Assembly: GCF_003054195.1 (NCBI RefSeq)
Contig: NZ_QBKP01000004.1
Location: 169,350 to 233,349, forward strand
Length of the DNA stretch: 64,000 nt
Direction of reading: 5' to 3'
Source: Gemmobacter caeni
GTDB taxonomy: Bacteria > Pseudomonadota > Alphaproteobacteria > Rhodobacterales > Rhodobacteraceae
The first letter of the stretch is position 1; the number at the start of each line of letters is the position of its first letter. The position numbers and the translations under genes were made by a program. This document shows, piece after piece, positions 49,708-62,034 of this stretch. The notes under the pieces are model-generated. The model was not told the origin of the DNA, did no database searches, and saw nothing but the letters and a program-made list of their open reading frames with translations.

Positions 49708-50862
49708 TCACGGCACCTGCTGGCGCTCGGCAAGCGGGGCGGTGGCCTCGAACCACGGCATCGGGTCTACCGGCTGCCCCCCCTGCCGCAACTCGACATA
49801 CAAAGTCGCCGTTTCGCGTGTGGCGCCATCCTGGGCCGGGACGAGAAATTCGTCCACCCCCGGTTCGCCGCCACCCATCAGACCAAGTGGCGCGCCCGCC
49901 GCAACGACCTCGCCCACCTCGCCATATACGGTTTCCAGCCCTGCCAGAACCAGAAGATAGCCGGGTCCGGGCTCAAGGATCATCACGTTTCCGAAATTGA
50001 GCAAGGGCCCGCGGTAGCGGATCGTGCCGGACCAAGGCGCTGTGACCAGTGCGCGAGGGCGGGTCGCCAGTACCATGCCGGGGCGGCGCACGCCTGCGCT
50101 GTCGGCCTCGTCCGGGCGGCGCAGCAGCGTCCCCAGGGCAGGCAGCGGCAGCTTGCCATGCGAGAAGCCGAAATCGGCCATCCCCTCGGCCTCAACCTCG
50201 TTCAGGGACAGGCCGGCGGCAAAGGCATCCAGCGTATCGGCGCTTTGCAGCAGGTTCTTCAGAACCTCGGGATCTTCGGTGAACCGCTTCGGCAGTTGCG
50301 TGCGTTCCGAAATCGACTGGCTCAGCGCGGTGCGGGCCTCCTGCGCGGCGCGCAGCCCGTCGGCCAGCGTGCGCCCGGCGGCGGTTTGCAGGGCCCGCAG
50401 GTCGCGCACCTCCTGCAACTGGGCACGCAGGGTTTCCGCCTCGGCCCGGATGGCCGGGGTGACATCGGCGATCATCATGCCCGAACGCACGGTGCCCAGC
50501 GGCCCCGAGGGATGCAGCAGCAGCAGCGGCGCCGGGTCGGATTCCATCCGTCCCAGCACGCCCAGCAATTGCGCTAGCCGGTCGCGCTTGGCCTCGAACT
50601 GGTAAAGCAGGGTCGCCTCGCGGATCGAGGCCTGCCGCAGGCTTTCGCGCAGCGCGGTCAGCCCCTGTTCATAGGCGGTAATGGTGCGGGTCAGCGCCTG
50701 CACCCGGTCGCGTGCCTGCCGCGCCTCGCCCAGGGCGATGACTGCCTCTTGCAGATTGCGTGCCGCCGTCTGTGCCTGTTCGGCAACGGAAGCCGCCACC
50801 GCAGGCCCGCCGAAGGCCAGCGCGGTCAACAGGGCAAGGACGGCGAAGCGGTAGCGCATCAT
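49708..50862 (-). CDS. EnvC-like murein hydrolase activator
   Basis: 384-aa periplasmic protein: signal peptide about 1-22, long coiled coil (about 25-235), then a degenerate LytM/M23 domain (about 265-370). The usual zinc ligands H-x-x-x-D and H-x-H are missing: the fold is kept (TAPWSGTIRYRGPLLNFGNVMIL, YVELRQGGQPVDPMPWF; ends TAPWSGTIRY and QPVDPMPWF), but the ligand histidines are Tyr, Leu, Ala or Val. It therefore probably activates an amidase at division sites rather than cutting itself, as EnvC does. The start at 50862 overlaps the gpmI stop; an ATG at 50859 is equally possible. Confidence 0.85.
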   Translation of the reverse strand: MMRYRFAVLALLTALAFGGPAVAASVAEQAQTAARNLQEAVIALGEARQARDRVQALTRTITAYEQGLTALRESLRQASIREATLLYQFEAKRDRLAQLLGVLGRMESDPAPLLLLHPSGPLGTVRSGMMIADVTPAIRAEAETLRAQLQEVRDLRALQTAAGRTLADGLRAAQEARTALSQSISERTQLPKRFTEDPEVLKNLLQSADTLDAFAAGLSLNEVEAEGMADFGFSHGKLPLPALGTLLRRPDEADSAGVRRPGMVLATRPRALVTAPWSGTIRYRGPLLNFGNVMILEPGPGYLLVLAGLETVYGEVGEVVAAGAPLGLMGGGEPGVDEFLVPAQDGATRETATLYVELRQGGQPVDPMPWFEATAPLAERQQVP

Positions 50863-52382
50863 CCGGCGATCAGGCTCTGCCCGGTCATTTCGGCCGGTTG
50901 CGGCAGGCCCATCAGGTGCAGCACCGTCGGCGCCAGATCGGCAAGCCGTCCACCCGCGCGCAGATGAGCGCCTTCCGGTCCGCCCACAAGGATCACCGGC
51001 ACCAGGTTGGTGGTATGGGCGGTATGCGGCCCGCCGGTCACCGGATCCACCATCAACTCGCAATTGCCGTGGTCGGCGGTGACGATCATCGCGCCGCCCG
51101 CCTTCTCCAGCGCCGCCAGTGCAAGGCCAAGCCCGGTATCAACTGCCTCGCAGGCCTTCATCGCGGCCTGAAGGCTGCCGGTATGGCCCACCATGTCGGG
51201 GTTGGCGAAGTTCACCACGATCAGGTCATAGCCATGCTCGATGGCGCCGACCAGACGCTCGGCCACCTCAGGTTCGCTCATCTCCGGTTGCAGGTCATAG
51301 GTGGCGACCTTGGGCGATTTCGGCATGAACCGATCCTCGCCCGCCGAAGGGGTTTCCTTGCCGCCGTTCAGGAAGAAGGTGACATGGGGGTATTTCTCGG
51401 TCTCGGCCAGACGGAACTGGCTGCGGCCATGGCTCGCCACCCATTCACCCAGCGTGTTCACGATGTCCTGCTTGGGGTAGCAGGTGGTCATGAAAGTGTT
51501 ATGGGTGGTGGAATAATCCACCATCCCCAGCAGGGCGGCCCATTGCGGGCGGGCGCTGGCGTCAAAGCCATCAAAGCCCGGCTGGCCCAGCGCCAGCAGG
51601 ATTTCCCGCGCGCGGTCGGCGCGGAAGTTCAGGCAGAAGAAGCCGTCGCCATCCTTCGCACCCGCATAGCCCGCGACCACGGTGGGCGCGATGAATTCAT
51701 CCGTCTCGCCGCGCTGATAGGCGGCATCGACGGCGCGGGCGGCAGTGGTCGCACGTTCGCCCTCGGCTTTCACCATAGCGTCGAAGGCGCGGCCCACACG
51801 TTCCCACCGATTGTCGCGGTCCATCGCCCAGTAGCGGCCGATCACGGTGCCGATGCGCGCACCTTCCGGCAGATCCTCGGTCAGTTCGCGCATGAAGGTG
51901 ACGGCGGATGAGGGCGCCACGTCGCGCCCGTCGGTGATGGCGTGCAGCACCACCGGCACCCCGGCACCAGCAATGGCGGTGCAGGCTGCCAGCACATGCC
52001 GGATATGGCCATGCACCCCGCCATCCGAAATCATACCCATCAGATGCGCTGTGCCGTCGGTCTTCTTCAGCGTTTCGATGAACTCCAGCAGCGCCGCATT
52101 GCGGTAGAAGCTGCCATCCTCAATGGCGAGGTCGATCTGCCCCAGATCCATCGCCACCACCCGGCCCGCGCCGATGTTGGTATGCCCGACCTCGGAATTG
52201 CCCATCTGCCCGGTGGGCAGGCCCACATCGGGGCCATGGGTGATCAGCAGCTCATGCGGGCATTCGGCCCAGATCCGGTCGAAATTCGGGGTTGCAGCCA
52301 GGGCAGGGGCATTGGCGGCGCGTTCCTCGCGGTAGCCCCAGCCATCCAGAATGCACAGAACGACGGGTTTCGGGATGGTCAT
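50859..52382 (-). CDS. gpmI: 2,3-bisphosphoglycerate-independent phosphoglycerate mutase
   Basis: 507-aa di-manganese glycolytic mutase of the alkaline-phosphatase superfamily. CILDGWGYRE (about 9-18), the phosphorylated Ser in GQMGNSEVGHTNIGAGRVV (about 58-76), HAITDGRDVAPSSA (about 149-162), FRADRAREI (about 255-263) and metal ligands NFANPDMVGHTGSL (about 396-409) and TADHGNCE (about 433-440) are all present. First gene of the gpmI-envC-like-ctpA cluster on the minus strand, with a 4-nt overlap to the EnvC gene. Confidence 0.96.
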   Translation of the reverse strand: MTIPKPVVLCILDGWGYREERAANAPALAATPNFDRIWAECPHELLITHGPDVGLPTGQMGNSEVGHTNIGAGRVVAMDLGQIDLAIEDGSFYRNAALLEFIETLKKTDGTAHLMGMISDGGVHGHIRHVLAACTAIAGAGVPVVLHAITDGRDVAPSSAVTFMRELTEDLPEGARIGTVIGRYWAMDRDNRWERVGRAFDAMVKAEGERATTAARAVDAAYQRGETDEFIAPTVVAGYAGAKDGDGFFCLNFRADRAREILLALGQPGFDGFDASARPQWAALLGMVDYSTTHNTFMTTCYPKQDIVNTLGEWVASHGRSQFRLAETEKYPHVTFFLNGGKETPSAGEDRFMPKSPKVATYDLQPEMSEPEVAERLVGAIEHGYDLIVVNFANPDMVGHTGSLQAAMKACEAVDTGLGLALAALEKAGGAMIVTADHGNCELMVDPVTGGPHTAHTTNLVPVILVGGPEGAHLRAGGRLADLAPTVLHLMGLPQPAEMTGQSLIAG

Positions 52383-52454: not shown

Positions 52455-52916
52455 TCAGGCGCCTTCGGCCGGACCCAGCACCTTTTCTGCCGTTCCGGCG
52501 TGCAGCATGTCCTCCAAAGTCAGCGAGTCGATGATGACCAGATAGGACCAGAACACCTCGGCAAAGACCTTGCGGATGCGACAGGTCGCCTCGTCGGTAC
52601 AATCCTCGCAGCGCTGGTAGGCACTGCGCGACAGGCAGGTCAGCGGGGCAATCGGCCCGTCGATCTTGCGCAGCAGATCCGAAATCGAAATCTCGCCCGG
52701 CGCCTTCACCAGCGAATACCCGCCCGAACGGCCACGGGTCGACGCGATGACACCCGCATTTCGCACGTCCAGCAGGATATGTTCCAGAAACCGCTTCGGC
52801 GTCGCGGCGCGGCGGGCGATTTCCTCGATGGTCAGCGGTTCCGGCCGTTTGGACCGGGCCTCGTCGGCCAGAACCAGCAACGCCTTCAGCGCATATTTCA
52901 TCTTCTGGGTGATCAT
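52455..52916 (-). CDS. Rrf2-family Fe-S transcriptional regulator
   Basis: 153-aa winged-helix regulator. HTH about 22-50 (PLTIEEIARRAATPKRFLEHIL; ends LTIEEIARRA and RFLEHIL), then GRSGGYSLVKAPGEISISDLLRKIDGPI (about 62-89; ends GRSGGYSL and LLRKIDGPI), and cysteines C-x8-C-x2-C-x6-C in TCLSRSAYQRCEDCTDEATC (about 92-111), a likely Fe-S ligand set that could sense iron, oxygen, NO or sulfur. Start taken at MITQKMKYALKAL (52916); other in-frame starts upstream lack a site. It is divergent from the five-gene operon at 53.1-59.4 kb and may control it. Confidence 0.88.
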   Translation of the reverse strand: MITQKMKYALKALLVLADEARSKRPEPLTIEEIARRAATPKRFLEHILLDVRNAGVIASTRGRSGGYSLVKAPGEISISDLLRKIDGPIAPLTCLSRSAYQRCEDCTDEATCRIRKVFAEVFWSYLVIIDSLTLEDMLHAGTAEKVLGPAEGA

Positions 52917-53093: not shown

Positions 53094-55277
53094 ATGAACG
53101 GCGGGCAAAAGTCGCGGAGGAACGGCATGAAACGGCCCGTGCTGTTTCTTGGACTGGCGGTTGCGGTGCTCCTGGCCGGGATTTTCCTGCGCGATGTGGT
53201 GCCCGATCTCGCGGCGCTGCGGGCGCATCTGGCAGGGGTCGAGGCCTGGCGGACGGCGCATCCTTCGCTGGCGGCGGGGCTGTTCTTCCTGCTCTACCTC
53301 GGTGTCACCGCGCTGTCTCTGCCGCTGGCGGTCTGGCTCACGCTGGCAGGGGGGGCGCTGTTCGGCTTCTGGGCCGGGCTGGTGCTGGTGTCCTTTGCTT
53401 CCACAGCGGGGGCGACGCTGGCCTTTCTGGCGGCGCGGCACCTGCTGCGCGACTGGGTTCGCGCCCGGCTGGGGACGCGGGCGGGCGCCATCGACGCGGG
53501 CCTGCGCCGCGACGGGGCCTTCTATCTGTTCAGCCTGCGGCTGATCCCGGTGGTGCCCTTCTTCGCCGTCAATTCGCTGATGGGGCTGACGCCGATCCGC
53601 ACCGGGGTGTTCTATGGCGTCAGTCAACTGGCCATGCTGCCCGCGACGGCGGTCTATGTGAATGCGGGCACCCAGATTGCGAAGATCGACAGTCTGTCCG
53701 GCCTCGTTTCGCCCGCGCTGCTGGCATCTTTCGCGGCCTTGGGCCTGTTCCCGTGGCTGGCGCGGCTGGTTGTGGGCGCTTTGCGCCGTCGCCGGGTGCA
53801 GGCGCGCTGGACCCGGCCGCGCCGGTTCGACCGCAATCTGGTGGTGATCGGGGCAGGCTCCGCCGGGCTGGTGACCGCCTATATCGCCGCTGCCGCGCAG
53901 GCGAGTGTCACGTTGGTCGAGGCGGGTGAGATGGGCGGTGATTGCCTGAACACCGGCTGCGTGCCGTCGAAGGCGCTGATCCGCAGCGCGAAGCTGGCGC
54001 AGGAGATGCGGCAGGCTTCGGCGCTGGGCATCGGCGCCCCGGAGCCGCAAATCCGCTTCGCAGAGGTGATGGAGCGTGTGCATCGCGCCATCACCCAAAT
54101 CGCCCCGCACGATAGTGTGGAGCGCTATACCTCCCTCGGGGTCGAGGTGTTGCCGGGCCGCGCCCGTATCCTCGACCCCTGGACGGTGGAGGTGGCGCTG
54201 AACGGGGGCGGCACAGAGCGGCTCACCACCCGCAGCGTCGTCATCGCCACCGGCGCGCGCCCTGTGGTGCCACCGCTGCCGGGCATTGATACGGTGGACT
54301 GTCTGACCTCGGATACGCTCTGGTCTCGTCTGCGCGGGCGCGAAACAGCCCCGGCGCGGTTGGTGGTGCTGGGCGGCGGGCCGATCGGGACCGAACTCGC
54401 GCAAGCGTTTCAGCGGCTTGGATCGCGGGTCACGCAGGTGGAAATGGCGGATCGGCTTATGATCCGTGAAGACCCGGAGGTTTCCGCCCATGTCCGAACC
54501 GCGCTGGAGGCAGATGGCGTGCGGGTGTTGACCGGGCACAAGGCGCTGGCCTGCGGGCGCGACGACACCGGCAAATGGATCGAGGTCGAGGGGCAAGAGG
54601 GCCGTCAGCGCATTCATTTCGACGAGATCATCGCCGCTGTGGGTCGCGCGGCCCGGCTGCAAGGCTTCGGGCTGGAGGAGCTGGGCATTCCAACCGACCG
54701 GGTGGTGCAGACCAACGACTATCTCGAAACGCTGTATACGAACATCTATGCAGCGGGCGATGTGGCCGGACCTTATCAGTTCACCCATACCGCTGCGCAT
54801 CAGGCCTGGTTTGCTGCGGTCAACGCCATGGCCGCCCCGTTCTGGCGTTTCCGCGCCGACTATCGTGTTATCCCCTGGGCCACCTTCTGTGACCCCGAGG
54901 TTGCCCGTGTCGGCCTGTCCGAGACCGAGGCGCAGGAGCGCGGCATCGCGCACGAGGTCACACGCTACGGCATCGACGATCTGGACCGTGCCATTGCCGA
55001 TGGACGGACCGAGGGCTTCGTAAAGGTGCTGACGGTGCCGGGCAGGGATCGTATTCTGGGCGTCACCATCGTCGGTCATCATGCGGGCGATCTGATCGCG
55101 GAATTTGTGCTGGCCATGAAACACGGACTGGGGCTGAACAAGATCCTTGGCACCATCCACATCTACCCGACGCTGGCCGAGGCCAACAAATACGCGGCAG
55201 GCAACTGGCGTCGGGCGCATGTGAACCCGAAGCTTCTTGCGCTGGCCCGCCGTTTCCACGACTGGAGGCGCGGATGA
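53094..55277 (+). CDS. TVP38/TMEM64 membrane domain fused to a flavin disulfide reductase
   Basis: 727-aa two-part protein. Residues about 1-225 are a TVP38/TMEM64 (SNARE-associated/DedA-like) membrane domain with GGALFGFWAGLVLVSFASTAGATLAFLAARHLLRD (ends GGALFGFWAG and LAFLAARHLLRD) and FSLRLIPVVPFFAVN. Residues about 243-727 are a pyridine-nucleotide disulfide oxidoreductase like mercuric reductase: VVIGAGSAGLVTA, redox pair C284/C289 in GGDCLNTGCVPSKAL, NAD motif LGGGPIGTELAQAF, YAAGDVAG and catalytic HIYPTLAEA. No N-terminal metal-binding domain or C-terminal Cys pair for mercury. Alternative ATG at 53127 also has GGAGG. The next gene overlaps by 4 nt. Confidence 0.9.
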   Translation: MNGGQKSRRNGMKRPVLFLGLAVAVLLAGIFLRDVVPDLAALRAHLAGVEAWRTAHPSLAAGLFFLLYLGVTALSLPLAVWLTLAGGALFGFWAGLVLVSFASTAGATLAFLAARHLLRDWVRARLGTRAGAIDAGLRRDGAFYLFSLRLIPVVPFFAVNSLMGLTPIRTGVFYGVSQLAMLPATAVYVNAGTQIAKIDSLSGLVSPALLASFAALGLFPWLARLVVGALRRRRVQARWTRPRRFDRNLVVIGAGSAGLVTAYIAAAAQASVTLVEAGEMGGDCLNTGCVPSKALIRSAKLAQEMRQASALGIGAPEPQIRFAEVMERVHRAITQIAPHDSVERYTSLGVEVLPGRARILDPWTVEVALNGGGTERLTTRSVVIATGARPVVPPLPGIDTVDCLTSDTLWSRLRGRETAPARLVVLGGGPIGTELAQAFQRLGSRVTQVEMADRLMIREDPEVSAHVRTALEADGVRVLTGHKALACGRDDTGKWIEVEGQEGRQRIHFDEIIAAVGRAARLQGFGLEELGIPTDRVVQTNDYLETLYTNIYAAGDVAGPYQFTHTAAHQAWFAAVNAMAAPFWRFRADYRVIPWATFCDPEVARVGLSETEAQERGIAHEVTRYGIDDLDRAIADGRTEGFVKVLTVPGRDRILGVTIVGHHAGDLIAEFVLAMKHGLGLNKILGTIHIYPTLAEANKYAAGNWRRAHVNPKLLALARRFHDWRRG

Positions 55278-55885
55278 TCGACGCCGCCCTTCTGCCCCTG
55301 CAACACCGCCTGCTGCGCCCCCCGGCGCAGGTGCTTGTGGCGCGTGGCATCAGCGCCGATCAGGTGACGCTGGCGGGCTTTGCCCTCGGGGCGCTGGCGC
55401 TGCCCGCGCTGGCCTTCGGCGCCTGGGGGCTGGCGCTGGTGCTGATTGTGGCGAACCGGCTGGCCGACGGGCTGGATGGTGCAGTGGCGCGGTTGACGGG
55501 CCCGACCGACCGGGGCGCCTTTCTTGACATCGCCTTTGACTTTGCTTTTTACGCGCTGGTGCCCCTGGGTTTTGCGCTGGCCGATCCGGGCGCCAATGCG
55601 CTGCCCGCCGCGCTGTTGATCGCGTCCTTCATCGGCACCGGGTCGTCCTTCCTTGCCTTCGCTGCCATCGCGGCCAAACGGGGTGAGGTGGCGCCTGCCT
55701 ATCCGTCAAAAGGCATCGCCTATCTGGGCGGGCTGACGGAAGGGGCGGAAACCATCGCTTTGTTTCTGGCCATGTGTCTTGTGCCCACGGCCTTCCCGCT
55801 GCTCGCCTGCCTTTTCGCTGCCGCCTGCACGCTGACCACCGTGCTGCGCTGGTGGTGGGGCTGGCGCGCTTTCGCCCCTTTATGA
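55274..55885 (+). CDS. CDP-alcohol phosphatidyltransferase family protein (YnjF-like)
   Basis: 203-aa membrane enzyme with about five TM helices. The CDP-alcohol phosphatidyltransferase signature D-G-x2-A-R-x8-G-x3-D-x3-D is visible as ADGLDGAVARLTGPTDRGAFLDIAFD (about 63-88; ends DGLDGAVAR and FLDIAFD). It would join a CDP-activated lipid to an alcohol, with product unknown. The length equals E. coli YnjF, and as there it sits next to ynjBCD homologues. ATGA overlaps on both sides put it inside one translationally coupled operon. Confidence 0.88.
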   Translation: MIDAALLPLQHRLLRPPAQVLVARGISADQVTLAGFALGALALPALAFGAWGLALVLIVANRLADGLDGAVARLTGPTDRGAFLDIAFDFAFYALVPLGFALADPGANALPAALLIASFIGTGSSFLAFAAIAAKRGEVAPAYPSKGIAYLGGLTEGAETIALFLAMCLVPTAFPLLACLFAAACTLTTVLRWWWGWRAFAPL

Positions 55886-55896
55886 CAGGAGTTTTC

Positions 55897-57087
55897 ATGC
55901 GCCTTGCGACGCTTGCCGCCCTTCCCCTGACGCTGGCGCTTGCCAGCCCTGCGCTTGCCGACTGGCAGGCGACGCTGGATGCCGCGAAAGGGCAGACGGT
56001 CTACTGGAACGCCTGGGGCGGCGATGACCGCACCAATGCCTTCATCCAGTGGGTCGGGCAGGAGACCGAGCGGCTTTACGGCGTGAAGGTCGAGCTGGTG
56101 AAGCTGACCGATACCGCCGAGGCGGTAACTCGGGTCATCGCTGAAAAAGCGGCGGGGCAGGACAGCGGTGGCTCGGTGGATCTTATCTGGATCAACGGGC
56201 CGAACTTCCTGGCGATGAAGGAACAGGGGCTGCTGCACGGCCCGTTCACGGCCGATCTGCCCAACGCGAAATATGTCGATCTGAGCGGCGCCGCGCCTGC
56301 GGCGGTGGATTTTACCGTGCCGGTGGAGGGGATGGAAAGCCCGTGGCGGCTGGCGAAGTTCGTCTTCGTCCATGACAGCGCGCGCGTGGCCGAACCGCCG
56401 CGCAACATGGCGGCTTTCGTCGATTGGGCGGCGGCGCATCCGGGGCGGATGACGCATCCCGACCCGTCGAACTTCATGGGGGCGACCTTCCTGAAACAGG
56501 CGCTGATCGAGCTGGCGCCCGATCCGGCGGTGCTGCAACAGCCGGTGACGGATGCCACGTTCGAGGCCACGACCGCGCCGCTTTGGGCGTGGTATGACGC
56601 GCTGCGCCCGAACCTCTGGCGCGGTGGCGCGACCTTCCCGGAAAACCAGTCGGTGCAGCAGCAATTGCTCAACGATGGTGAGGTCGACATCGCCATGAGC
56701 TTCGATCCAGCCTCTACCGCTGCGGCCATCGAACAGGGGCTTCTGCCCGAGACGGCGCGTGTTTTCGTGCCCGAGGGCGGCACCATCGGCAATGTCAGCT
56801 TCGTGGCCATCCCCTATAACGCCGCCCATGCGGCGGGGGCCGAGGTGGTGGCGAACTTCCTTCTGGACCCGGCAACCCAGGGGCATATGCAGAATATCGA
56901 AGTGCTGGGGTCGTTCTCGGTTCTTGATCCGGCGAAACTGGATGATGCCGGACGCGCGGCCTTCACCGCCCTGCCCACCGCGCCAGCGCTGCCGCAGCTG
57001 GAGGATCTTGGGCCGACACTGCTGGAGCCGCACGCCAGCTGGATGACCCGCCTGACCGGGGAATGGGCGCGGCGCTACACGAAATGA
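55897..57087 (+). CDS. ynjB: ABC transporter substrate-binding protein, YnjB family
   Basis: 396-aa periplasmic binding protein (COG4134 type). Signal peptide about 1-20 (AALPLTLALASPALA-D). The mature protein begins with the type II binding fold: GQTVYWNAWGGDDRTNAFIQWV (ends GQTVYWNAWGG and NAFIQWV), VDLIWINGPNFLAMKEQGLL (ends VDLIWINGPN and KEQGLL), then MTHPDPSNFMGATFLKQ. The fold is like thiamine- and iron-binding proteins, but the ligand is not known for YnjB. The ATG at 55897 with CAGGAG is preferred; an ATG at 55882 overlaps the upstream stop and is the alternative. Confidence 0.88.
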   Translation: MRLATLAALPLTLALASPALADWQATLDAAKGQTVYWNAWGGDDRTNAFIQWVGQETERLYGVKVELVKLTDTAEAVTRVIAEKAAGQDSGGSVDLIWINGPNFLAMKEQGLLHGPFTADLPNAKYVDLSGAAPAAVDFTVPVEGMESPWRLAKFVFVHDSARVAEPPRNMAAFVDWAAAHPGRMTHPDPSNFMGATFLKQALIELAPDPAVLQQPVTDATFEATTAPLWAWYDALRPNLWRGGATFPENQSVQQQLLNDGEVDIAMSFDPASTAAAIEQGLLPETARVFVPEGGTIGNVSFVAIPYNAAHAAGAEVVANFLLDPATQGHMQNIEVLGSFSVLDPAKLDDAGRAAFTALPTAPALPQLEDLGPTLLEPHASWMTRLTGEWARRYTK

Positions 57088-58775
57088 GCGATGGCCGGGG
57101 CCTGCGCGGGCTGGTTCTGCTGATCGTTGGGACGGGGCTGCTGGCCCCGATTCTGGCCGGTCTGGCGGAAACGGCCTCTGCGGCCTTCGGTCATCTGCCC
57201 GCGCTGGGGTTTGATGGCTGGAGCCTCACGGCCTGGCACGCCCTCGCCGCCGAGCCGGGGCTGGCCACCAGCCTGCGGCTGACGCTGGTCACCGGGCTGG
57301 GGGCGACGGCGCTTTCGGTCGTGCTGGCGATGGGCGCCGTGGCGGCGCTGGCCGGGCGGGTGCCCGCTGCGCGCGGGATGCGGGCGCTGGCGCCGTTTCT
57401 GGCGGTGCCACACGCGGCCATGGCGATTGGTCTTGCCTTCCTTCTGGCACCCTCGGGCTGGATCGCGCGCGGGCTGGCGCCGCTGATGGGTTGGGCGCTG
57501 CCGCCGGACCTCGCCAGTGTGAATGATCCTTGGGGGCTGGCGCTGATCCTTGGCCTGCTGGTCAAGGAAGTGCCCTTCCTCATGCTGGTCACCTGGTCGG
57601 CGCTGGGGCAGATCGACGCCGGGCGGCAGATGGCGGCAGGCAGGGCGCTGGGTTATGCGCCTGCCGCCATCTGGGCCAAGGTGCTGCTGCCGCAGCTTTG
57701 GCCGCTGGTGCGACTGCCGGTGGCGGTGGCGCTGGCCTATGCGTTGTCGGTGGTGGATATGGCGATCATCCTTGGCCCGTCGAACCCGCCCGTGCTGGCC
57801 GTGGCGCTGACCCGCTGGTTCTTCGACCCCGATCCCGCGCGTATCCTGCCCGCCGCCGCCGGGGCGCTGGTGCAGGCGGCCATCGTGGCGCTGGGTTTGG
57901 TGCTGCTGTGGGCGGCGGAGCTTCTGGCACACGGGCTTGGCCGACGGTGGGTGCGGGCGGGTGGGCGTCGCGCCTTCGGTCCGGGGCTTGCCGCCGTGCT
58001 GGTTGGCGGGCTGCTGACCCTTGCCACCCTGGCGCTGCTGGCTCTGGCCGTCTGGTCGCTGGCCTGGCGGTGGAGCTTTCCGCAACTGCTGCCCGAAAGC
58101 TGGTCGCTGAAATTCTGGCTGGCCTCGGGTCGCTGGGGCGCCGCTTTGGGCATGACGCTCTGGCTCGCAATGGCCTCTGCCGCACTGTCCGTCGCGCTGG
58201 CGATCCTGTGGCTGGAAGCGGAGGATCGCGGCCAGCGCACCCGCGCCCGCTGGGCCGAAGCGCTGATCTACCTGCCGCTGATCCTGCCGCAGATCGCGTT
58301 CCTTTACGGGCTGAACGTGGTGGCGCTGCGGGCGGGCCTGTCGGGTCACCCCGGCGCGGTGATCTGGGCGCAGGCGATTTTCGTCTTTCCCTATGTGATG
58401 ATCGCGCTGACCGCGCCCTGGCGGGCGCTTGACCCACGCCTCAGCCGCGCGGCGGCGGCACTGGGGGCGGGGCCATGGCGCCGGCTGGTCCGCGTCAAGC
58501 TGCCGGTGCTGCTGCGCCCGATCCTGACCGCCGCCGCGATTGGCGTGGCGGTGTCGGTCGCGCAATATCTGCCGACGCTGTTTCTGGGTGCGGGCAGGGT
58601 GACGACACTGACGACCGAGGCGGTGACGCTGTCGTCCTCCTCCGATCGCCGGGTGGTGGCGGTCTATGCCAGCCTTCAGGCGCTGGTGCCCTTCGTTGCC
58701 TATGCGCTGGCGGCGCTGCTACCCGCATGGGTGCATCGCAACCGCCGCGATCTGGCCGGAGCCGTGCCCGCATGA
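57084..58775 (+). CDS. ynjC: ABC transporter permease, YnjC family (duplicated)
   Basis: 563-aa permease with about 12 TM helices in two homologous halves, each carrying an EAA loop for the ATPase: first half GRALGYAPAAIWAKVLLPQLWP (about 194-215; ends GRALGYAPAA and LLPQLWP), second half AAALGAGPWRRLVRVKLPVLLRP (about 453-475; ends AAALGAGPWR and LPVLLRP). One polypeptide thus forms the whole channel, as in ThiP/FbpB-type and E. coli YnjC. It begins with an ATGA overlap with ynjB and ends with one at ynjD. Confidence 0.9.
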   Translation: MSDGRGLRGLVLLIVGTGLLAPILAGLAETASAAFGHLPALGFDGWSLTAWHALAAEPGLATSLRLTLVTGLGATALSVVLAMGAVAALAGRVPAARGMRALAPFLAVPHAAMAIGLAFLLAPSGWIARGLAPLMGWALPPDLASVNDPWGLALILGLLVKEVPFLMLVTWSALGQIDAGRQMAAGRALGYAPAAIWAKVLLPQLWPLVRLPVAVALAYALSVVDMAIILGPSNPPVLAVALTRWFFDPDPARILPAAAGALVQAAIVALGLVLLWAAELLAHGLGRRWVRAGGRRAFGPGLAAVLVGGLLTLATLALLALAVWSLAWRWSFPQLLPESWSLKFWLASGRWGAALGMTLWLAMASAALSVALAILWLEAEDRGQRTRARWAEALIYLPLILPQIAFLYGLNVVALRAGLSGHPGAVIWAQAIFVFPYVMIALTAPWRALDPRLSRAAAALGAGPWRRLVRVKLPVLLRPILTAAAIGVAVSVAQYLPTLFLGAGRVTTLTTEAVTLSSSSDRRVVAVYASLQALVPFVAYALAALLPAWVHRNRRDLAGAVPA

Positions 58776-59419
58776 GTCTTGTTCTGGAAAAGCTGATGGT
58801 CACCTTGCCCCGCGCCGACAGGCCGCTGTTCGAGGTTAGCCTGCGGGTCGAGCCGGGGCAGGTGGCCAGTGTCATGGGGCCATCAGGCGTCGGGAAATCC
58901 ACGCTGCTCGATGCGGTGGGGGGACATCTGGCGCCGGGCTTTCGTTGCGCGGGTCGGGTCTGGCTGGAAGGACGCGATGTGACGCACCTGCCCGCCGAGG
59001 CCCGGCGCATCGGGCTGATGTTTCAGGAGGCGCTGCTGTTCCCGCACCTGTCTGTGGGCGACAACCTTGCCTTCGGGCTGAGCCCCGCCGTGAAGGGGCG
59101 CGCCGCGCGCCGTGCGGCCGTGGCTACCGCGCTGGAGCGCGCGGGGCTGGCCGGGATGGAGGGGCGAGACCCGGCTACCCTGTCGGGCGGGCAGCGGGCG
59201 CGCGCGGCGCTGATGCGCACGCTGCTTGCCGATCCCGCCGCGCTTTTGCTGGATGAGCCCTTCTCGCGGCTGGACACCGGGTTGCGGGCTGAAATGCGCG
59301 CCTTCACCTTCGCCCATATCGCTGAACGGGGTATTCCGGCGCTGATGGTGACGCATGATCCCGAAGATGCGACCGCAGCAGCGGGGCCGGTGCTGCGATT
59401 ATCTGCCACGGGGACTTGA
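58772..59419 (+). CDS. ynjD: ABC transporter ATP-binding protein, YnjD family
   Basis: 215-aa ABC ATPase. Walker A GPSGVGKST (about 34-42), Q-loop LMFQEALLFPHLSVGDNL (about 80-97), signature LSGGQRARAAL (about 138-148), Walker B ALLLDEPFSRLD (about 158-169) and H-loop VTHD (about 194-197). It is short, with no regulatory domain. Last gene of the operon (ATGA overlap with ynjC); it is followed by the large inverted repeat at 59424-59468, with no classical terminator. Confidence 0.92.
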   Translation: MSLVLEKLMVTLPRADRPLFEVSLRVEPGQVASVMGPSGVGKSTLLDAVGGHLAPGFRCAGRVWLEGRDVTHLPAEARRIGLMFQEALLFPHLSVGDNLAFGLSPAVKGRAARRAAVATALERAGLAGMEGRDPATLSGGQRARAALMRTLLADPAALLLDEPFSRLDTGLRAEMRAFTFAHIAERGIPALMVTHDPEDATAAAGPVLRLSATGT

Positions 59420-59423
59420 AAAT

Positions 59424-59468
59424 CTGAACAGTTCGGTTCACTTTCACAAAATGAACCGAGTCGTTCAG
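59424..59468. promoter_or_regulatory. large inverted repeat, candidate TetR operator
   Basis: CTGAACAGTTCGGTTCA (59424-59440) and TGAACCGAGTCGTTCAG (59452-59468) pair at 14 of 17 positions around an 11-nt spacer. Each arm also holds a smaller GAAC/GTTC dyad, so two regulator dimers could bind. A TTGAAA (59416-59421) and CACTTT (59439-59444), 17 nt apart, form a possible promoter across it. It lies upstream of the small secreted protein and a TetR gene. Confidence 0.6.
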
Positions 59469-59484
59469 TTTGTGGAGCCCCCTG

Positions 59485-59658
59485 ATGCGCCTGACCCTTG
59501 CCGCCCTCTGCCTTGCCGCCTTGCCCACCCTCGCCGCCGCGGGGGGCGCGCCTTTCGACCTGCCGCGCCTGACCTTCCCCGACCCGGCGCCGCCCGTCAC
59601 ACAATCCTGCACCGATCCGGTGGCCATCGGCGGCGCGACCTGCACGCAGGGTCTGTGA
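59485..59658 (+). CDS. small secreted protein of unknown function
   Basis: 57 aa. Signal peptide about 1-19 (AALCLAALPTLAAA-G), leaving a mature peptide of about 38 residues with FDLPRLTFPDPAPPV, rich in proline, and two cysteines (SCTDP..GATC) that could form a disulfide. GGAG about 8 nt before the ATG. It lies between the large inverted repeat and a TetR regulator in the same direction, so it is probably controlled by that regulator. Family not recognised. Confidence 0.6.
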   Translation: MRLTLAALCLAALPTLAAAGGAPFDLPRLTFPDPAPPVTQSCTDPVAIGGATCTQGL

Positions 59659-59704: not shown

Positions 59705-60328
59705 ATGGAAAGCCAGGTAATGCCGCGCGCCCGTAAGGGCCGGAAGTTCGATCAGGTGCTGGAAGGCGCCCGAAACGTGTTTCTTCAACACGGATTCGAG
59801 GGTGCCTCGGTCGATGACATCGCCCGCGAGGCGGGGGTCAGCAAGGCCACGCTTTACAGCTATTTCCCTGACAAGCGCCTGCTGTTCATGGAGGTGGCTC
59901 AAAGCGAGTGCCGCCGTCAGGCCGATGAGGCGGTGGAGCTGATCGACCAGAACGCCCCTGTCGACAAGGTGCTGACCGAGGCGGCGCGGCGCATGGTCGC
60001 CTTCCTCATGTCCGATTTCGCACAGAAGGTGTTCCGCATCTGCGTGGCGGAAAGCGAGCGCTTCCCCGAACTGGGGCATCAGTTCTACCATTCCGGCCCT
60101 GTGCTGGTGCGGGAGCGGCTGATGGAATACCTCGCCAAGGCGGTGGAGCGTGGCGAGTTGCAGATCGACGATCTGGCCTTCGCCGCCGACCAGTTCGCGG
60201 CGCTGTGCAAGGTGACACTGCACGAACAGACGATCTTCGGCGTCGCCGCCTGCTGTCCGCCGCAGGAGGCCGACAAGGTGGTCTCGGGCGCGGTCGAGAT
60301 GTTTCTGGCGCGCTACGGGGTGCGTTAG
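59705..60328 (+). CDS. TetR/AcrR-family transcriptional regulator
   Basis: 207-aa regulator. HTH about 12-58: FDQVLEGARNVFLQHGFEGASVDDIAREAGVSKATLYSYFPDKRLLF (ends FDQVLEGARNVFLQHGF and KATLYSYFPDKR). The C-terminal domain is like AefR/PF14246 members (ARRMVAFLMSDFAQKVFRICVAESERFPELG; ends ARRMVAFLMS and SERFPELG). Start at 59705 or 59720. It is probably cotranscribed with the small secreted protein and may bind the inverted repeat upstream. The ligand and the rest of its regulon are unknown. Convergent with the NYN gene and overlapping it by 4 nt. Confidence 0.88.
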   Translation: MESQVMPRARKGRKFDQVLEGARNVFLQHGFEGASVDDIAREAGVSKATLYSYFPDKRLLFMEVAQSECRRQADEAVELIDQNAPVDKVLTEAARRMVAFLMSDFAQKVFRICVAESERFPELGHQFYHSGPVLVRERLMEYLAKAVERGELQIDDLAFAADQFAALCKVTLHEQTIFGVAACCPPQEADKVVSGAVEMFLARYGVR

Positions 60329-61029
60329 AGCAGCCGGACGCTGCCGCCGGGCGTGGACTTGTCCAGCCTGAAGCGGTCGGAATGGGCAGACAGAAACTTG
60401 CCCCAGCTTGCGTGCCCCGTGGTCTTCAATCTGCCCTTCAGCTCCTGCCCGATTTTGGTCAGTGGCAAGGCACCACCCGATGCGCTGTCACGCAGCAAGT
60501 TTTCTACATCCTTCAGCAGGGCGGCTTCAGGCAGGTTGGCCGGCAGGACATGCGCTGGCTTGGGCGCGGATGTTTGTGTCGGTCCCGGCGCAGCTTTCAA
60601 CTCTACAAACCCCGTGCAGCTTTTACGCCAGTTTTCTGGTGCTGTAGCCTCGCCCATGCCATAGACCGGAATGCCGCGCTCGCGCAGGTGGCTGGCGATA
60701 TGGCTGAAGTCGCCGTCATTGCTTGCCAGAACGATCACATCCGCCAGCCGGTCATGCACCAGCGCCAGGGCCTCGATACACAAAAGCAGATCGGCCGCGT
60801 TCTTGCCCCGCCCGGCATGGATCAGCCGGTAACCCGGCGCCGCGTCCCAGCGCGGCAGCCTGGCCGCATCGCCATAGACCCGCTTAACCGTCACCGCACC
60901 ATGTTTTGCTGCCTGAATGATCAATGGTCCGGCATGGCGGTCGCCAAGATTCTCGCCATCGACCAGCAGAGCAACACGGGCGCGACCGGAGGTATGGGTC
61001 GCCATGAGTTCGGGGGACAAGGCATTCAT
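60325..61029 (-). CDS. NYN-domain / OST-HTH (LOTUS) protein 1
   Basis: 234-aa predicted RNA-acting protein. The N-terminal NYN (PIN-like nuclease) domain (about 15-145) has ALLVDGENLGD (Asp about residue 23), YGDAARLPRW, GKNAADLLLCIEAL (Asp about 80) and ASNDGDFSHIA with the catalytic Asp pair (about 103-112). The C-terminal OST-HTH/LOTUS domain (about 165-230: LLKDVENLLRDSA, LTKIGQELKGRL) is an RNA-binding winged helix. All acidic residues for metal binding are present. A paralogue with the same architecture lies directly upstream on the same strand. Confidence 0.85.
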   Translation of the reverse strand: MNALSPELMATHTSGRARVALLVDGENLGDRHAGPLIIQAAKHGAVTVKRVYGDAARLPRWDAAPGYRLIHAGRGKNAADLLLCIEALALVHDRLADVIVLASNDGDFSHIASHLRERGIPVYGMGEATAPENWRKSCTGFVELKAAPGPTQTSAPKPAHVLPANLPEAALLKDVENLLRDSASGGALPLTKIGQELKGRLKTTGHASWGKFLSAHSDRFRLDKSTPGGSVRLL

Positions 61030-61091: not shown

Positions 61092-61886
61092 TCAGGAGCG
61101 GTCGCGCGCCAGCAGTTGACCACCCGGACCCGGTTTCACCTCGAACCGGCTGGAGATCTTGCGGATCAGGTCCGACAGTTTGGCGCTGCCGTAGGTGCGG
61201 GTGTCGAAATCGGGATTGGCCTGCGTGATATACTGGCCGATCTGGCCCAGCGAATACCATTCGCCCTCGGGGTCGATGGCGCGCATCGCGGCGGCGATCA
61301 GCGGGATGGCCTTTTGCGGCGATTCCGTCTCGCGCCTGCCGCGCGGAGCGCGCGGTTCGGCCGGCGTATCGGCGGGCGTGGTATCCACAGGCTCCGGCGC
61401 GCGGTCTATCCGTGGCTCGGGCGTGTGATCATCGCTTTCCTCGGCCCCGAGGTTCTCCACATAGATGAACCGCTTGCAGGCCATGCGGAAGGCTTCGGGC
61501 GTTTTCTTCTCGCCGATGCCGTAAACATCCAGACCCTGTTCGCGGATGCGCGCGGCCAGACGGGTGAAATCGCTGTCAGAGCTGACCAGAACGAACCCGT
61601 CAAACAGGCCCGAATGCAGGAAATCCATCGCCGCGATCACCAGCCCGATATCCGAGGCATTCTTGCCCTTGGTGTTGGAAAACTGCTGATCCGCCACCAT
61701 GCCCAGCCGCGCGACCTTCTTTGCCCAGCCGCCAAGACGCTGTGCCGACCAGTCGCCATAGATGCGGCGCACGCTGGCTTCGCCCAAGGCGGCGATTTCC
61801 TCGAAGATTGCTTCGGCATAGCCGGCGGGCACGTTGTCAGCGTCGATCAGCACACACAGGCGGGGAGTTCTGGTTTCGGGCATCAT
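61092..61886 (-). CDS. NYN-domain / OST-HTH (LOTUS) protein 2
   Basis: 264-aa paralogue of the gene at 60325-61029, with a longer linker. NYN domain about 6-140: CVLIDADNVPAGYA (Asp pair about 14-16), YGDWSAQRLGGW, KGKNASDIGLVIAAMDFL (ends KGKNASDIGL and AAMDFL) and VSSDSDFTRLAARI (about 101-114). A Pro/Arg/Thr-rich linker (about 150-190) leads to the OST-HTH domain (about 190-260: AIPLIAAAMRAI, LGQIGQYITQANPDF). GAGG before the double ATG at 61886/61883. The two genes (63-nt gap) likely form one operon; both could be endoribonucleases in RNA turnover or defence. Confidence 0.87.
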   Translation of the reverse strand: MMPETRTPRLCVLIDADNVPAGYAEAIFEEIAALGEASVRRIYGDWSAQRLGGWAKKVARLGMVADQQFSNTKGKNASDIGLVIAAMDFLHSGLFDGFVLVSSDSDFTRLAARIREQGLDVYGIGEKKTPEAFRMACKRFIYVENLGAEESDDHTPEPRIDRAPEPVDTTPADTPAEPRAPRGRRETESPQKAIPLIAAAMRAIDPEGEWYSLGQIGQYITQANPDFDTRTYGSAKLSDLIRKISSRFEVKPGPGGQLLARDRS

Positions 61887-62034
61887 GGTCCTCTTGTTCT
61901 TTTGCAACCATTGTCACAGGTTCGGCGCCTCAGGGGAAGCGGATTTGCCGGTTTCCCCTGCGCGAGGTCGCCATCAGGCGGGAAACACACGGAAAATCCC
62001 GTGACCCTGCACCGGGCGAGGGCAGGAGGACAGG

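Follow-up and report, generated by a model that had tools for sequence, protein, structure and literature searches.

A five-gene operon of Gemmobacter caeni joins a CDP-alcohol phosphatidyltransferase of the YnjF type to the ATP-binding cassette (ABC) transporter YnjBCD, and the coupling of these two is genuine and phylum-wide, a conclusion that we hold with near certainty. The operon lies at positions 53094–59419 of the 64,000-nucleotide stretch analyzed here (the window), which corresponds to positions 169,350 to 233,349 of contig NZ_QBKP01000004.1 (assembly GCF_003054195.1). The constant core of the system is YnjF with YnjBCD; a fusion of a TVP38 membrane domain with a flavoreductase, encoded by the first gene, is a true but optional third partner. 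Across 398 genomes drawn evenly from the phylum, YnjB was found in 51 and YnjF, called at E values up to 1e-10, in 60. YnjF was present in 49 of the 51 genomes with YnjB versus 11 of the 347 without it, an odds ratio of about 750. Within the family of the window, represented by 198 genomes (76 with YnjB over the cut-off and 82 with YnjF), the corresponding figures are 67 of 76 and 15 of 122. All of these co-occurrence counts are raw, with kinship ignored. At the level of taxonomic families (87 in total, going by the highest label), YnjB occurs in 16, of which 15 contain YnjF as well; two more contain only YnjF.

Gene neighborhoods were scored in 2.5-kb steps around YnjB in three sets of loci that may overlap, because the same species can occur in more than one: (i) the family set, 60 of the 76 YnjB genomes of the family draw, the other 16 comprising ten loci no longer than about 4 kb and six fragments; (ii) the named set, the best 80 of 568 confirmed loci; and (iii) the phylum set, 50 loci that comprise every YnjB genome of the phylum draw except that of the window. 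YnjF lies close to YnjB in 40/60, 44/80, and 34/50 of these, respectively, so that the neighborhood and co-occurrence check proposed in the first-pass annotation of this DNA disfavors coincidence. Among 119 loci with both genes nearby, a count that includes some genomes twice, YnjF is upstream on the same strand in 79, upstream and divergent in 14, downstream on the same strand in 19, and downstream and convergent in 7, one of which is Escherichia coli K-12. One inherited gene order is no explanation for the pairing because the genes adjoin in four arrangements, and the link does not depend on gene order because in 14 of the 49 genomes the two genes are over 10 kb apart or on different contigs. 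A coincidental grouping, in which order is conserved within one lineage and there is no common function, would agree with the partial inheritance of gene order within Rhodobacteraceae-like genomes; it is extremely improbable in view of the four arrangements, the co-occurrence of YnjF and YnjB even when unlinked, and the spread of the pair over 15 taxonomic families.

In the list of open reading frames (ORFs) of the window, the five genes lie on one strand, and the operon that they form is genuine. Its features are as follows.
53094–55277, forward strand: TVP38/VTT membrane domain fused to a flavin adenine dinucleotide (FAD) disulfide reductase, 727 residues; second possible start at 53127
55274–55885, forward strand: YnjF-type CDP-alcohol phosphatidyltransferase, 203 residues, identified by PF01066, motif, and fold
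55897–57087, forward strand: YnjB periplasmic solute-binding protein, 396 residues including the signal peptide; alternative in-frame ATG at 55882
57084–58775, forward strand: YnjC permease, a single long chain of 563 residues with BPD_transp_1
58772–59419, forward strand: YnjD ABC ATPase, 215 residues, ABC_tran 102 bits
55274–55277, forward strand: ATGA stop/start overlap between the reductase gene and ynjF, read from the sequence
55882–55899, forward strand: ynjF stop and both candidate ynjB starts (55882 and 55897), with AGGAG at 55887–55891
57084–57087, forward strand: ATGA overlap between ynjB and ynjC, read from the sequence
58772–58775, forward strand: ATGA overlap between ynjC and ynjD, read from the sequence

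The domains above the Pfam gathering scores are VTT_dom, Pyr_redox_2, and Pyr_redox_dim in the fusion, CDP-OH_P_transf in YnjF, SBP_bac_8 in YnjB, BPD_transp_1 in YnjC, and ABC_tran in YnjD. The operon had been described as fully overlapping, with ATGA at all four junctions. This is correct for 55274, 57084, and 58772 but probably not for 55882: the ATG at that position is in frame and overlaps the ynjF stop, with no ribosome site visible before it, whereas the ATG at 55897 has AGGAG 5 bases ahead and opens an apparent signal peptide. Because of this spacing and the signal-peptide-like beginning, ynjB probably starts at 55897, 11 bases beyond the ynjF stop. Of 76 loci in which YnjF precedes YnjB in the same orientation, 72 have more than 20 bases between the tblastn matches of the two, as measured from match ends and not gene starts. 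Where the reductase gene and ynjF adjoin on one strand (28 pairs, some from the same genome twice), 20 pairs have the spacing of a 4-base overlap (match gap of −1). Co-translation, as had been proposed, is suggested by the overlapping starts, which are no proof of joint action of the proteins.

The first-pass annotation also envisaged a phylum-wide association of three activities. The YnjBCD–YnjF part of this is strong, and TVP38 proteins recur beside both, but the fusion itself is found in only 21 of the 51 YnjB genomes. In the phylum draw it occurs in 58 of 398 genomes (37 of the 347 without YnjB), a count that requires at least 50% identity over the fusion and keeps 58 of 63 matches; the five excluded are G215, with the reductase part only, and G511, G213, G416, and G323, with about 40% identity. 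Of the 26 genomes that hold the fusion and at least one of YnjB and YnjF, 21 have no more than 10 kb between the fusion and one of the two. The reductase belongs to the cluster in 7/60, 18/80, and 14/50 YnjB loci of the family, named, and phylum sets. In the 11 genomes with YnjF and no YnjB, the fusion is near YnjF in five (G209, G556, G283, G543, and G570) and absent by count from six. A single in-frame stop (TGA, TAG, or TAA) was seen in the TVP38-reductase matches of G317, G511, G213, G334, G309, G416, and G323; these stops could mark alignment ends or pseudogenes, and a TGA might encode selenocysteine.

YnjF scores 31.6 bits with PF01066 (cut-off 22) and carries the motif DxxDGxxAR-x7-GxxxDxxxD at residues 65–89, which together place it among the CDP-alcohol phosphatidyltransferases; all 31 YnjF sequences compared have the four catalytic Asp. 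The best match of its model (predicted local distance difference test score, pLDDT, 88.6) is the phosphatidylinositol-phosphate (PIP) synthase 5d92, with Z 20.7 and a root mean square deviation of 2.2 over 187 aligned residues of the predicted structure. The Z scores are 19.5–20.7 for PIP synthases (RsPIPS 5d92, MkPIPS 6wm5, and MtPgsA1 6h59), 19.3 for AF2299, and 19.0 for AfDIPPS, and they are lower for choline phosphotransferase (14.8), PgsA (13.5), and phosphatidylserine synthase (PSS; 11.8). PIP synthases bind the phosphate of the acceptor via R94, R155, and R195 (PMC6506517, PMC4634129), and in these enzymes R or K always follows the fourth Asp (PMC6506517). YnjF has in common with the PIP synthases the fold, the catalytic Asp motif, and the C-terminal Arg (R192 opposite R195), but R94 is replaced by F (F90) in 31/31 YnjF sequences and R155 by E159 or T160, depending on the alignment. 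With two of the three phosphate-binding Arg gone and a score of 34.2 bits for the PIP synthase model NF045883 (cut-off 170), YnjF was rejected as a PIP synthase.

The residue that follows the fourth Asp is F in 31/31 YnjF sequences. At the same position, PgsA of the window genome has K, its PssA-like protein F, and its Pcs-like protein Y, the latter two being below the cut-offs of their models; YnjF therefore resembles the serine and choline phosphatidyltransferases in having an aromatic residue here. The acceptors of PssA and Pcs carry no phosphate. The match of a YnjF profile to PSS structures is limited to positions 32–114. Because YnjF is without two of the three key phosphate-binding Arg of PIP synthases, its acceptor is probably unphosphorylated, a suggestion that rests on few enzymes, and the acceptor alcohol may bear an amine or other cation. 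Because the window genome also encodes PgsA and the PssA-like and Pcs-like proteins, YnjF probably has no housekeeping role there.

The components of YnjBCD are those of an ABC importer that works with a solute-binding protein. YnjB scores 481 bits with NF008633 (PRK11622; cut-off 203) and thus belongs to the YnjB family, and the E. coli protein is also over the cut-off; the nearest named relatives, among the matches listed, reach 86% identity in a Rhodobacteraceae metagenome-assembled genome. The model of YnjB (pLDDT 92.6) has a binding-protein fold. A search of PDB sequences with YnjB alone gave no match, and a YnjB profile gave weak matches there, with polyamine binders on top; the resemblance to glycoside and phosphosugar binders (TMBP, AfuA, and UgpB) consists of fold matches only, with close scores. 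Six Trp, five Asn, and no Tyr are invariant in 36 YnjB sequences; Y394 is nearly invariant, yet it is among the final residues. Ferric-binding proteins such as FbpA and FutA use conserved metal-binding Tyr, and ferric import by YnjB was rejected because no Tyr is invariant among the 36. The invariant Trp and Asn would loosely fit a sugar-like or cationic organic solute.

In YnjC, BPD_transp_1 covers residues 386–546 and the ThiP model aligns with residues 49–513, far under its cut-off; the long chain seems to cover both permease halves. The best NCBIfam model for YnjD is that of ThiQ (159.6 bits). The thiamine transporter ThiBPQ was rejected as an identification, with 159.6 of 245 bits for TIGR01277 and 22.5 of 395 for TIGR01253. 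An importer of a thiamine-, sulfur-, or molybdenum-cofactor-related solute that serves redox enzymes, with YnjF linked indirectly, is what YnjE and the E. coli annotation hint at, and it would be consistent with the ThiQ match, the activation by FNR of ydjXYZ-ynjABCD and ynjE in E. coli (PMC3688515), the genetic clustering with Suf (PMC3930520), and a "thiamine" annotation quoted in PMC9184624. We consider such an importer unlikely: the Thi scores are far under their cut-offs, and the constant partner is YnjF, whereas YnjE is found in 6/50 phylum-draw loci and, in the named loci (best 80 of 568), as one weak 29% match (L119).

A Pfam scan of the fusion places PF09335 at residues 80–193, PF07992 at 248–571, and PF02852 at 593–701, and the physical joining of a TVP38 part to a flavoprotein, reported earlier from the letters of the sequence, is thereby borne out. 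The chain has the make-up of a COG0398-type TVP38 protein with a pyridine nucleotide-disulfide oxidoreductase, COG0398 membership itself not being scored. The reductase part has the Cys-pair motif GGDCLNTGC at residue 281 and HIYPTLAE at residue 689, the Tyr of which we take to occupy the position of the base His in lipoamide-type enzymes. The C-terminus of the window reductase is ALARRFHDWRRG, with no Cys in the last 12 residues. Residues were counted in 45 distinct relatives with at least 50% identity and no preselection on motif, in which the reductase of the window genome enters twice (whole at L051 and cut at L261). The motif GGxCxxxxC is kept in 45/45, and Tyr precedes P-T in an H-x-Y-P-T-type motif in 38/45, the pattern being unmatched in 7. 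The TVP38/VTT part is in the same ORF in 39/45, and one of the other six is cut by the end of its stretch. The last 25 residues are free of Cys in 44/45 and contain CC in 0/45.

The best equivalog models for the reductase are those of MerA and lipoamide dehydrogenase. The hallmark of MerA is a C-terminal vicinal Cys pair. Because the Cys-pair motif is kept but the C-terminal Cys are absent, and TIGR02053 gives 375.6 bits (cut-off 454), mercuric reductase was rejected, and the protein is predicted to be a disulfide-type flavoreductase, not a proper MerA; the earlier term "mercuric-reductase-like" is apt for the resemblance (376 bits) and goes too far for the score and the C terminus. The universal GGxCxxxxC motif and the two best models would also suit a redox or detoxification unit centered on the reductase and directed at mercury, quinone, or oxidant, with lipid change as a secondary defense. 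That arrangement is quite unlikely in light of the score under the MerA cut-off, the relatives with Cys-free C termini, and the presence of the reductase in only the 7, 18, and 14 YnjB loci given above.

The reading that we favor, tentatively and with confidence a little short of even, is a membrane-lipid headgroup module that combines uptake of a headgroup or precursor, its attachment to phospholipid, and a membrane redox step before or after; the coupling has been computed, and the ligand, product, and redox step are inferred. YnjB would capture a periplasmic solute that is small, polar, and not ferric, delivered in one form of the cluster probably by a co-encoded TonB receptor, and YnjCD would carry it inward. 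YnjF would then move phosphatidate from CDP-diacylglycerol onto a hydroxyl of the solute or a derivative, probably unphosphorylated and perhaps with an amine or other cation, to give a phospholipid with an unusual headgroup. The TVP38 part would move the lipid across the inner membrane or anchor the reductase there, and the Cys pair of the reductase would mediate redox chemistry of the thiol/disulfide kind, or similar, with the headgroup or a partner as substrate. The co-occurrence of YnjF and YnjB, which holds without linkage and in four arrangements, speaks for this reading, as do the presence of YnjF in addition to housekeeping enzymes and the aromatic residue at its acceptor site. The six invariant Trp and the lack of an invariant Tyr in the 36 YnjB sequences are also counted in support, as is the effect in E. 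coli of the ynjC P213S reversion, which lowers fitness under colistin (PMC9184624).

Several points weigh against the headgroup module. Binders of phosphosugars, ferric iron, polyamines, and glycosides all match the fold of YnjB, and their scores are too close for a choice. In YnjF, the residue equivalence of E156/E159 is uncertain, the aligned stretch that sets R192 opposite R195 is weak by itself, and a profile of the C-terminal half matched no solved structure in the PDB. No scored partner is near YnjBCD in 19/60, 18/80, and 12/50 loci of the family, named (best 80 of 568), and phylum sets, 11 phylum-draw genomes carry YnjF without YnjB, and the co-occurrence tests take no account of phylogeny. 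The E. coli ynjABCDEFI genes cluster with the Suf iron-sulfur genes in a genetic screen, a grouping that gives no hint of lipids (PMC3930520), and neither a YnjB ligand nor a YnjF product was found in the parts searched of the openly licensed (CC0, CC BY, or CC BY-SA) PubMed Central literature. A diverged YnjB (31–40% identity) without an adjacent YnjF is present in 12/60 family-draw loci (L033–L037, L052, L053, L059, L061, L064, L066, and L071), most of which have two separate permease ORFs. Because these diverged relatives still exceed its cut-off, NF008633 lumps two types of transporter.

In a more specific form, which is possible but doubtful, the module would be an undescribed branch of phospholipid synthesis in Pseudomonadota, including E. 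coli K-12: YnjBCD would import a redox-relevant, probably unphosphorylated alcohol, YnjF would link it to CDP-diacylglycerol, and the product would be processed by a membrane-bound TVP38 reductase that is also used by a parallel arsenosugar-type pathway. If so, YnjF would add another kind of acceptor to those served by the glycerol-phosphate, serine, choline, inositol, and inositol-phosphate enzymes. The co-occurrence of YnjF and YnjBCD merges two orphans into one question, namely which alcohol is imported and attached to lipid, and a lipid link could bear on the benefit of the ynjC mutation under colistin.

Other genes recur near YnjBCD, among them a kinase-like APH protein and the TIGR04282 and TIGR04283 glycosyltransferases. 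Three loci of one genus (L211, L212, and L216) combine YnjBCD, both glycosyltransferases, the kinase, and the fusion. In the phylum draw, TIGR04283 is over the cut-off in 140 distinct genomes (141 rows), and the fusion lies within 10 kb of it in 10 of the 35 genomes with both; in G495 the fusion adjoins an ArsS gene. Of the 194 genomes that have at least one of YnjB, YnjF, and TIGR04283, 55 carry the fusion, versus 3 of the 204 that have none of them. TIGR04283 is rarer with YnjB (7/51 versus 133/347) and with YnjF (6/60 versus 134/338), as if it and YnjB/YnjF avoided each other as alternative pathways. Because the fusion is found in both settings and TIGR04283 is rarer with YnjB, the fusion looks like a tool common to two pathways.

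The same associations could mean that YnjF and YnjBCD belong to an organometalloid (arsenic or selenium) pathway with TIGR04282, TIGR04283, and ArsS and synthesize, import, or recycle headgroups or lipids of an arsenosugar-like kind. The distribution of the fusion, its place beside TIGR04283 and ArsS, and the three combined loci all point that way. The idea nevertheless appears improbable given the rarity of TIGR04283 with YnjB, and ArsS is over its cut-off in only 2/8 chosen genomes, G495 with neither YnjB nor YnjF and G556 with YnjF alone. In the window genome, the best TIGR04283 score is 43.7 bits (cut-off 182) and ArsS reaches 26 bits (cut-off 300); both are below their cut-offs, and arsenosugar synthesis in this organism was rejected on that ground. 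A search of the open literature gave nothing useful on links between arsenosugars, TVP38, and DUF547.

A DUF547 gene lies between the fusion and ynjB in eight loci (L193, L194, L205, L206, L209, and L213–L215), probably from another class, the Gammaproteobacteria, and seven of the eight have a TonB receptor in the same cluster. A radical SAM/SPASM protein is encoded upstream of ynjB in 15 alphaproteobacterial and Burkholderiales loci over all sets (L164:6708–7787 and 14 others); a representative had no NCBIfam match. YnjA and YnjE adjoin YnjBCD in six E. coli-like loci.

The operon of the window is followed directly by an imperfect inverted repeat (59410–59482, 35-base arms, 74% complementary), a 57-codon ORF (59485–59658) with a signal-peptide-like start and then two Cys, and a TetR/AefR-like regulator gene (59705–60328, from the Pfam scan), of which the repeat is perhaps the operator. 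TetR was rejected as a conserved partner: among the 60 family loci it is strongly matched only in its own locus and L069 and weakly in L074 and L084, more likely plain synteny. Beyond it are two similar neighboring minus-strand ORFs (60325–61029 and 61092–61907), which by eye we take to be NYN-domain-like. On the other side, an Rrf2-family regulator gene with three closely spaced Cys (52455–52913, minus strand) is divergent from the operon and next to an ORF (50859–52382) that is presumably gpmI; Rrf2 was likewise rejected as a partner, being matched among the 60 family loci only in its own.

Among known systems, the fusion has a published counterpart and is not new: Todor et al. 2023 (PMC10127716) report that COG0398 DedA proteins are fused to Pyr_redox more often than to any other domain, and these DedA/TVP38-Pyr_redox proteins have the same domain families in one chain as the window protein. 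COG0398 proteins were suggested in the same paper as possible phospholipid scramblases, and its main text is without the terms "ABC transporter" and "CDP-alcohol," so that the YnjBCD and YnjF partners are not discussed under those words. The TIGR04282/TIGR04283/ArsS loci ("arsenosugar biosynthesis" in NCBIfam) also contain the TVP38-reductase in some genomes, but of the 140 genomes with TIGR04283, 132 lack both YnjB and YnjF. A Marinobacter pangenome lists YnjBCD as uncharacterized (PMC9207381), and in E. coli ynjAB is induced 1.4–1.6-fold by BaeR overexpression, perhaps indirectly (PMC2731931). The E. coli K-12 record describes YnjB, YnjC, and YnjD only as "putative ABC transporter" and names YnjF only by its domain. 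The likeness to E. coli ydjXYZ-ynjABCDEF that had been noted at first is upheld: orthologous YnjBCD and YnjF are present there, with YnjB 44% and YnjF 54% identical to those of the window, and TVP38 proteins are in the cluster. In E. coli K-12, however, two unfused TVP38 proteins (YdjX and YdjZ) together with YdjY, YnjA, and YnjE stand in place of the fused reductase, the last three having no match in the window's own locus (L051), and ynjF is convergent with the transporter genes, unlike its counterpart in the window operon.

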